From: Chitinophaga pinensis | GTDB taxonomy: Bacteria; Bacteroidota; Bacteroidia; NS11-12g; UBA955 | NCBI GenBank assembly: GCA_945888525.1 | Contig: CAMDAF010000014.1 | Span: 1 to 50,585 of the forward strand | Direction of reading: 5' to 3' | Length of the DNA: 50,585 nt | Shown here: one piece after another, positions 440-19,203 of the stretch | Position numbering within the stretch: the first letter of the stretch is position 1 | Layout of the letters: each line of letters begins with the position of its first letter | Position numbers and translations under genes: made by a program | Notes under the pieces: generated by a model | Told to the model about the DNA's origin: nothing | The model's input: the letters and a program-made list of their open reading frames with translations, nothing else | Databases searched by the model: none

Positions 440-465
440 TTTTTATGAACTCTTAAAGGTTTTGA

Positions 466-504
466 TCTGAACCTCCCGATAGCTATCGGGAGAGCTAAGC
501 TCCC
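466..504 (-). pseudogene. Broken tRNA-Val 5' fragment carrying an 18-bp palindrome
   Basis: Reading leftward from 504, the first 13 nt (504-492) equal the first 13 nt of tRNA-Val. Next comes the 18-bp palindrome (491-474), then GGTTCAGA (473-466), which equals the tRNA sequence after its D-loop AGCT. The palindrome has AGCT at its centre, so the fragment reads as a tRNA-Val 5' end with about 14 nt added symmetrically around that AGCT. Everything 3' of GGTTCAGA is lost. It lies upstream of the intact tRNA in the same orientation, consistent with a former tandem tRNA-Val pair. Confidence 0.65.
474..491. repeat. 18-bp palindrome tcccgatagctatcggga, copy 1
   Basis: This is a perfect inverted repeat. 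With the flanking c and g it extends to 20 bp (473-492). An identical 18-bp copy is at 19163-19180 in an unrelated intergenic region, which points to a dispersed palindromic repeat. Here it sits inside the broken tRNA-Val fragment. Confidence 0.85.
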
Positions 505-18932: not shown

Positions 18933-19203
18933 TGAGCAAGAACTTAGTGAAACGAAGTGTGGCGTTCTCACGAACTAAACGGAACGAAGTGGAGTGTTCT
19001 CACGACCAAAGGGAGTACACCAAAGGGAGTAACAAGAACTTAGCGCAGCAATTTCACGACCGGAGGGAGTAGCAGGAGGAAGGCAATCGAAAATGCTTCA
19101 TGTTTTCGTTTTCAGAACTAATAACAAATAATTATTAACGATTAACTAATAACTAGACCCTATCCCGATAGCTATCGGGACCCAGCCCCTAGACCCTTCG
19201 TCT
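18933..19203. repeat. Intergenic cluster of short repeats
   Basis: Two related units of about 26 bp (18950-18975 and 18981-19007) share aacgaagtg and gttctcacga. They are followed by two exact tandem accaaagggagta copies (19005-19017, 19019-19031; 14-bp period) and a variant accggagggagta (19059-19071). The 19 nt at 19000-19018 recur exactly inverted at 34688-34706. The region also holds the second 18-bp palindrome (19163-19180). No open frame with coding character is present. Confidence 0.7.
19163..19180. repeat. 18-bp palindrome tcccgatagctatcggga, copy 2
   Basis: This is identical to the copy inside the broken tRNA-Val fragment (474-491). Here it lies in the intergenic region just downstream of the giant PKD gene, which is read leftward. 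It could form a strong cruciform or RNA stem of 7-9 bp but has no T-run after it, so it is not a standard terminator. Confidence 0.85.

Follow-up and report, generated by a model that had tools for sequence, protein, structure and literature searches.

The small dispersed repeats (SDRs) of cyanobacteria, which Elhai and colleagues are said to have described in 2008, are reportedly hairpin-forming, gene-less sequences of 21–27 nt that lie within other repeats and nest in one another, their mobility being deduced. Repeats of the SDR type are tens of nucleotides long, dispersed, hairpin-forming and non-coding, and they are embedded in other repeats and in copies of themselves. To our knowledge, how gene-less elements of about 20 nt spread has been an open question ever since the cyanobacterial SDRs. 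Dispersed palindromic repeats are also present in bacterial genomes as the Rickettsia palindromic elements (RPEs), while MITEs are defined by a target-site duplication. Organelles harbor hairpin elements of their own, fungal double-hairpin elements among them.

In Volvox, according to the available part of the report, short palindromic repeats averaging 50 nt are inserted within other palindromes and keep their loop sequence (PMC2670323). The RHE elements of sponges, as far as the available text goes, have conserved helices and substitutions in the loops (PMC2800124). REP and REPIN sequences, associated with RAYT transposases, are short bacterial palindromes that the available portions of two papers treat as probable non-autonomous mobile DNA (PMC3733652, PMC3116915). 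The same portion of one of them reports no obvious correlation between transposase and copy number among REP carriers, and a CGTC at one end of the RPEs of R. conorii (PMC3733652).

Here, we analyze a window, by which we mean the whole stretch of 50,585 nucleotides from contig CAMDAF010000014.1, in which a palindrome sits inside a spare, partial copy of a tRNA gene. The palindrome is dispersed, and it replaces short segments both in spare tRNA copies and in the hairpin of another repeat, with no duplication of the target.

The tRNA-Val unit

The working tRNA-Val gene, with anticodon TAC, lies on the minus strand at 364–439 (ARAGORN, 364–439; Rfam RF00005, 71.8 bits, 365–439), and its 5′ end on that strand reads GGGAGCTTAGCTC AGCT GGTTCAGAGC. 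Upstream of it, the minus strand from 504 to 466 consists of three parts, exactly as the original prediction had read them, base for base. The 13 nt GGGAGCTTAGCTC (492–504, minus strand), the left side of the partial copy, match nt 1–13 of the working gene exactly. The 18-bp perfect palindrome TCCCGATAGCTATCGGGA (474–491) stands in place of nt 14–17 (AGCT), as established from the sequence, the copy counts and the reading of the junction. The 8 nt GGTTCAGA (466–473, minus strand; junction L003), the right side of the copy, match nt 18–25 exactly. The spacer between the partial copy and the working gene (440–465, minus strand) no longer has a recognizable likeness to tRNA in its sequence, and the palindrome is 34 nt from the gene. 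Judging by their length, exact matches of 13 and 8 nt on either side of one palindrome, with the matched gene 34 nt away, exclude chance.

A probable promoter of the unit, a TATTTTTG box with a TTTG-type box upstream of it, is located at 555–590 on the minus strand. It was recognized by eye from its likeness to the TTTGCA-type stretch found 5′ of many other tRNAs, and partly from what we take to be the Bacteroidota promoter consensus. Given this predicted promoter, the partial copy would lie inside the transcribed leader. A probable terminator, a hairpin followed by a T-run, was seen by eye at 337–354 on the same strand. The neighboring genes are ordinary by their Pfam matches: ribosomal silencing factor RsfS, a biotin/lipoate ligase-family protein and type III pantothenate kinase.

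The second copy of the palindrome that had been predicted in the window is present at 19163–19180; by the sequence search and the flank and ORF tests it has no overlapping ORF of at least 90 aa and no tRNA-like flanks. Degenerate short direct repeats (GAACGAAGTG..., AAAGGGAGTA...) can be seen by eye 5′ of this copy, at 18960–19080.

Relatives were compared at the tRNA-Val site, with genomes designated G000 (that of the window) and onward. A match to the tRNA-Val gene was found in 14 of the 17 genomes of the genus, and tRNA-Val(tac) in 13. Within the displayed 170 nt, an upstream partial copy is present in 5 of these 13, and it contains the palindrome in 3 (G000, G004 and G006). The partial copy of G008 has an intact D-loop AGCT, but a different hairpin in its anticodon arm, and that of G016 is degenerate and lacks the palindrome. 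The remaining 8 of 13 show no partial copy in that stretch, and three of them (G007, G011 and G014) have a leader that by eye is otherwise like that of G006. The replacement at this site is thus visible both against the working gene and against the palindrome-free copy of a relative, G008. The check on relatives that the original prediction had proposed came out in two parts: tandem tRNA-Val copies exist in 5 of 13 genomes and an empty site reading AGCT exists in G008, but AGCT is not the general state of such sites.

A dispersed palindrome and the segments it replaces

The window holds two instances of the 16-nt core of the palindrome when up to three mismatches are allowed; 100 shuffles gave 0.07 on average, and one of them also reached 2. 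The genome of the window (Bacteroidota; 2.42 Mb in 63 contigs) has nine exact core copies and none of the same letters reversed. The proposal that a repeated palindrome lies within a partial tandem copy of tRNA-Val is borne out. The genus has 64 exact 16-nt cores in 12 of its 17 genomes (reversed control, 0), and 21 of the 59 genomes searched have a core match, with a reversed control of 0 in every case; both counts take in the window's own genome. None of the nine copies in G000 falls in an ORF of at least 90 aa, whereas an ORF of that size covers a share of 0.9355 of random window positions. Mismatches in mutated copies cluster at the tip of the hairpin, with 18 of 41 on the central 2 of the 18 positions, or 10 of 24 against 2.7 expected once loci fetched by fixed-arm patterns are left out. 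One palindrome is nested in another (L194). This locus has two tandem 5′ copies of tRNA-Lys, of which one bears the nested palindromes. The exact 25-nt D-loop form had 0 matches in IMG/VR, where viral carriage would appear, and three forms of the palindrome string were absent from papers in the open literature library searched.

Three of the nine palindromes of G000 are within 5′ partial copies, one each for tRNA-Val, tRNA-Ala and tRNA-Met; in every case a promoter-like TTTGCA stretch precedes and the intact gene follows. When flanks were required to match a tRNA across a gap of 0–8 nt, tRNA-like flanks were found for 20 of the 63 copies fetched from the 64 of the genus, against 38 of 1500 random window positions, a comparison that ignores kinship within the genus. 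The matching gene was downstream for 14 of these 20 copies, upstream for 1, and absent from the fetched locus for 5. A larger count, 33 of 85, takes in loci picked by D-loop patterns and was set aside in favor of 20 of 63. A D-loop gap pattern with a free interior gave 17 matches in the 59 genomes and 0 in its control. Fifteen of them are the 18-mer or a one-base variant, all within 9 of the 17 genus genomes, and the other two, in G057 and G009, are non-palindromic.

Similar structures are found outside the genus. The pattern AGCTCTCCCG-N8-CGGGAGG-N0-3-AGAG matched in 7 of 395 genomes of the class, from 6 families (control, 0), and the N8 center was ATAGCTAT in five matches and AAAGCTTT and ATAGGTAT in one each. 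All seven are upstream of the matching tRNA (Val, Met, Trp, Ala, Thr(cgt), Thr(tgt) and Asn), which starts 61 to 105 nt after the start of the match. A loose-pattern scan of genome contigs in another collection returned at least 117 stretches, of which 17 match rows remained after filtering and nine loci were inspected. Among the matches listed, seven of these nine lie upstream of the matching tRNA, L239 has no tRNA, and L216 is in a tRNA array whose matching gene is not adjacent. Carriers among the matches listed include two Salinimicrobium species (tRNA-Gly), Litoribacter ruber (tRNA-Met), Chryseolinea sp. H1M3-3 (the tRNA array) and several metagenome assemblies; the Litoribacter ruber locus (L219) has the same sequence as G359 of the 395-genome search and L209 is the G006 locus, and these are therefore not independent. 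Most loci outside the genus were found by patterns in which the D-loop and the outer arms were prescribed, and the wider searches therefore show spread rather than a preference for the D-loop.

The Chryseolinea array (L216, around 1050–1170) also holds a pseudo tRNA-Ile with palindromes in both its D-loop and its T-loop. At L053, L060 and L134 (G009 and G006), three tandem units of about 79 bp each consist of a 5′ copy of tRNA-Asn, a palindrome and a spacer. A leader unit of tRNA-Asn in G149, from another family (L288), is 89% identical over 61 nt to the G006 unit, a likeness that may reflect constraint or horizontal transfer; the stretch flanking the G149 unit is about 66% identical to G009 over 225 positions. 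The query of this tRNA-Asn comparison matched in only 3 of the 395 class genomes, and in G208, where the fetched locus lacks a tRNA gene, the match covers 26 nt.

In tRNA copies, we read 49 junctions at which a hairpin stands for a segment, 41 upstream and 8 downstream of the gene; many are from loci selected by their D-loop, and at least two (L236 and L014) look like chance. The replaced segment is usually 3–5 nt long. A segment of 1 nt appears in two junctions, L236 and L053, the latter where trimming of the hairpin shortens its GTC. The exact 18-mer, whose center is AGCT, stands where the real D-loop reads AGTT (tRNA-Gly of two species), AATT (tRNA-Trp), AACT (tRNA-Arg) or ATTT (tRNA-Ala, G011). 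Other lost segments are AGAAT in tRNA-Asp, AGCCT in tRNA-Gly and, in the anticodon region of tRNA-Met, ATAAT, replaced in G001 and, by a variant palindrome, in G012. Longer TCCCGC...GCGGGA hairpins replace whole anticodon arms. Lost segments reach 17 nt and include entire stem-loops as well as stretches that extend into a stem (ACCCAAAGGT; GTC where T-stem and acceptor meet), so that replacement of the loop is a tendency and not a rule.

The same exchange is seen away from tRNAs. In a CCCTTCGAC...CAGGGTGAC-type repeat, the 18-mer replaces AGCTT or AGGCT, with filled and empty copies in G006, G007 and G011. A filled CTACTG[18]GTCGAATG in G007 compares with an empty ATACTG AGCTT GTCGAATG in G006, and a filled CTTCGAC[18]CAGCATGAC in G006 and G007 with an empty CTTCGAC AGGCT CAGCATGAC in G011. 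At L031–L036, L038–L040, L056, L057, L303 and L314, this repeat appears as a hairpin, CCCTTCGAC-loop-CAGGGTGAC, with an exchangeable loop (AGCTT, AGGCT, TCCGCT or the 18-mer). In the orthologous pair L038 and L292, followed over its full length, the hairpin is present in both genomes with its tip changed; in G004 a different hairpin occupies that position. Sites that are clearly empty belong to other copies of a repeat, or to tRNA copies and genes, and no near-identical strains were found to differ by a recent insertion at a unique site.

Flank complementarity was scored at 74 distinct 18-mer sites, with a mixed overall result that likewise speaks against a simple loop rule. At least 4 bp at an offset of up to 6 were found at 28 sites against 15.4 expected (maximum of 300 shuffles, 25), at least 5 bp at 3 sites against 5.6 expected, and at an offset of up to 3 the mean was below expectation.

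A second palindrome, TCCGCCGCGGCGGA, of 14 bp, has 15 copies in 5 of the 17 genus genomes (control, 0), none of them in G000. Seven of these stand in copies of tRNA-Met, where they take the place of T-loop or anticodon/variable segments, and one copy in G003 is, by eye, at the tip of a hairpin unrelated to tRNA. At L374 and L391 (tRNA-Met of G001 and G006), at least two 3′ partial copies lie downstream of the gene; in these, TCCGCCGCGGCGGA stands for the T-loop region, and a terminator-like T-run comes after each copy. The downstream 3′ copies at L078 (tRNA-Pro, G000) and L366 (tRNA-Ser, G012) have a different, 29-nt T-loop insert after TTCGA, and the two inserts resemble one another.

Origin of the unit and competing explanations

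Self-copies were surveyed by BLAST within 350 nt of 129 distinct tRNA genes of G000, G001, G006 and G012. Upstream self-matches were found for 15 genes, none passing tRNA nt 64, and downstream self-matches for 11, which contain the 3′ part in 10 cases, the exception being a weak match at the tRNA-Trp of G001. The partial copies resemble the products of ordinary tandem duplication with one breakpoint within the gene, and the polarity, 5′ copies upstream and 3′ copies downstream, is the one expected of a duplication that ends inside a gene that must survive intact. Downstream of the tRNA-Met of G006, a terminator-like hairpin and the 3′ part have been duplicated together; at the tRNA-Met of G012, the same is true of a promoter-like leader and the 5′ part. 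A duplication ending inside the tRNA thus yields a 5′ partial copy directly, as at the G012 gene, and the deletion of the rest of a tandem tRNA-Val that had originally been proposed is unneeded.

We consider that the locus probably records two events, a tandem duplication that left a 5′ copy of tRNA-Val and, later, the replacement of its D-loop AGCT by a dispersed 18-bp hairpin element. In the first step, a tandem duplication with one breakpoint in tRNA-Val would have left the intact gene preceded, in its leader, by a partial copy of its 5′ part; the tRNA-Met of G012, promoter-like leader included, offers a directly visible parallel. In the second, an 18-bp palindromic hairpin element would have moved in, taking the place of the 4-nt AGCT of the spare copy. 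Such an element would be a gene-less, non-autonomous miniature mobile hairpin favoring the loops of other hairpin-forming sequences, with the D, anticodon and T arms of tRNAs and the CCCTTCGAC...CAGGGTGAC repeat as its targets, and the target would lose a short segment and gain no duplication. We infer that the element is mobile, that hairpin structure guides it and that the spareness of the copies makes it tolerable; it would be seen in spare copies because insertion into a working tRNA would presumably do harm. The spare tRNA-Val copy is probably functionless, and RNase P may remove it with the leader.

The enzyme that might drive such movement was sought among Y1 transposases. G000, which is 98% complete and has nine palindrome copies, had 0 matches to Y1_Tnp (PF01797, E ≤ 0.001). 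Matches occur in 12 of the 17 genus genomes without a visible link to palindrome copy number, and G012, G013 and G014 have 2–4 matches each and 0 palindrome copies. A Y1/RAYT transposase as the present engine is therefore unsupported; as the available part of the source reports no obvious correlation among REP carriers either, the absence of Y1 alone is compatible with a role in the past (PMC3733652).

A single event has also to be weighed, in which DNA synthesis halts or changes template at the hairpin of the D arm, recopies the 5′ part of the tRNA and leaves a hairpin at the switch point. By-eye reading of the four surveyed genomes found at least one hairpin insert in 13 of the 15 upstream partial copies, which is more than expected of a rare mobile element and hints at joint origin or joint retention; the tandem units of about 79 bp in G009 and G006, each with copy, hairpin and spacer, also fit. 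Two further sets outside the 15 bear inserts: the tRNA-Ala copy of G000, missed by the BLAST cut-off, and the tRNA-Asn copies of G006, at a contig end where the intact gene is absent. But the identical 18-mer is also found far from tRNAs and in other repeats, and its sequence is therefore not made locally. Hairpin-free partial copies exist too, namely those of tRNA-Arg(cct) in G000 and G006, which are the two exceptions among the 15, and the degenerate tRNA-Val copy of G016; and at the tRNA-Met of G012, the hairpin is at the anticodon, yet the duplicated tRNA sequence continues past it. We regard a single event as unlikely. The hairpin-free 5′ copies of tRNA-Arg(cct) (L087 in G000 and L392 in G006) end 7 and 10 nt before the gene.

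No better placed is the idea that the tRNA-like 5′ copy and its stable hairpin form a functional leader element tuning transcription, folding or processing of the downstream tRNA. The layout is regular in all seven class-wide matches, with a 5′ copy bearing a hairpin, a short spacer and the matching tRNA, but this order already follows from tandem duplication ending inside the gene. The spacer is alike by eye among genus members, the G149 tRNA-Asn unit shares 89% with that of G006 over 61 nt where its flank shares about 66% with G009 over 225 positions, and some predicted precursor folds pair the 5′ strand of the copy with the 3′ end of the real tRNA. The distribution is patchy, however: the D-loop form occurs in 7 of 395 class genomes and the palindrome-bearing tRNA-Val unit in 3 of 13 genus genomes, the affected tRNAs differ between genomes, the otherwise G006-like leaders of G007, G011 and G014 lack the unit, and the same palindrome is found in places unrelated to tRNA. 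A leader function is improbable on this evidence.

The original prediction gave AGCT a special part, either as an insertion site retained as the center of the palindrome or as the sequence around which repair built it. The D-loops of the matching tRNA-Val, Ala, Asn and Thr(tgt) of several carriers do read AGCT. The exact 18-mer, however, also replaces AGTT, AATT, AACT, ATTT, ATAAT, AGAAT, AGCTT and AGGCT, which contradicts this explanation and makes it very unlikely. AGCT is not a required target, because the real D-loop often reads AGTT, AATT, AACT or ATTT; and because the same AGCT-centered 18-mer sits at D-loops of those other sequences, the identity of center and target in tRNA-Val is a coincidence. 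An artefact of assembly or chance is hardly credible, for although the genus genomes are draft assemblies of about 30 to 400 contigs, the structure is common to many separate assemblies, the named isolate genomes of Salinimicrobium and Litoribacter included, and the controls are 0.

The reading of duplication followed by hairpin replacement may extend beyond this locus. The arrangement recurs in scattered relatives, at tRNA genes other than tRNA-Val as well, and this points to a mobile element of unusually small size that tends to land in hairpin loops. More tentatively, Bacteroidota may host a widespread exchange of hairpin for loop, in which the segment at the tip goes out and an 18-bp (or 14-bp) palindromic hairpin comes in, its target being a structure rather than a sequence; if so, the element would be among the smallest mobile elements in bacteria. 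Such a reading would explain odd tRNA-like fragments beside tRNA genes in Bacteroidota. Since the intact gene next door reveals the ancestral sequence of the copy, each event can be read to the base, in what was lost, what was gained and in which order, and the mechanism is therefore testable by comparing strains.

Relation to described hairpin elements

The 18-mer has several traits of an SDR-type repeat. It is short, dispersed, palindromic and non-coding, with nine copies in G000 and none of the nine in an ORF of at least 90 aa; it is embedded in another repeat, as the filled and empty CCCTTCGAC/CAGGGTGAC copies show, and one palindrome (L194) is nested. As SDRs are reportedly described, the two are alike in being very short, hairpin-forming, dispersed, gene-less, present within repeats and nested. 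SDRs are said to be cyanobacterial and 21–27 nt long, whereas the 18-mer belongs to a different phylum, is perfectly palindromic and takes the place of a short target segment, tRNA arms being prominent among the targets.

Against REP and REPIN sequences, which the available portions of the sources describe as 20–40 bp long with a GTAG or CGTC tag, the 18-mer is shorter and untagged, and G000 has no Y1 transposase (PMC3733652, PMC3116915). Within 10 nt of either end, GTAG was found at 9 and CGTC at 5 of 85 distinct sites, and control words of the same composition at 2, 5, 9 and 12 of 85. RPEs and the 18-mer are both dispersed bacterial palindromes, and on the one feature compared, the CGTC end given in the available part of the source, the 18-mer differs in lacking it (PMC3733652). 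Nor does the 18-mer show the target-site duplication of MITEs, as filled and empty pairs show target bases lost and not duplicated. It falls outside the definitions of both REP and MITE.

Organellar hairpin elements are closer in form. The palindromic repeats of Volvox, in the available part of their description, nest in palindromes as the 18-mer does, but are longer and keep their loop, which varies in the 18-mer (PMC2670323). The conserved stem and variable loop reported for RHE in the available text are also found in the 18-mer, with 18 of 41 mismatches at the tip, or 10 of 24 without the fixed-arm loci (PMC2800124). Organellar elements are mitochondrial or plastid, whereas the 18-mer was found in prokaryote genomes in the searches made, and its insertion into spare tRNA copies has no counterpart in the available parts of the two organellar reports (PMC2670323, PMC2800124). 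The 18-mer is a miniature hairpin repeat that tends to land in the loops of spare tRNA copies, and its nearest kinds are the SDRs of cyanobacteria and the hairpin elements of organelles.
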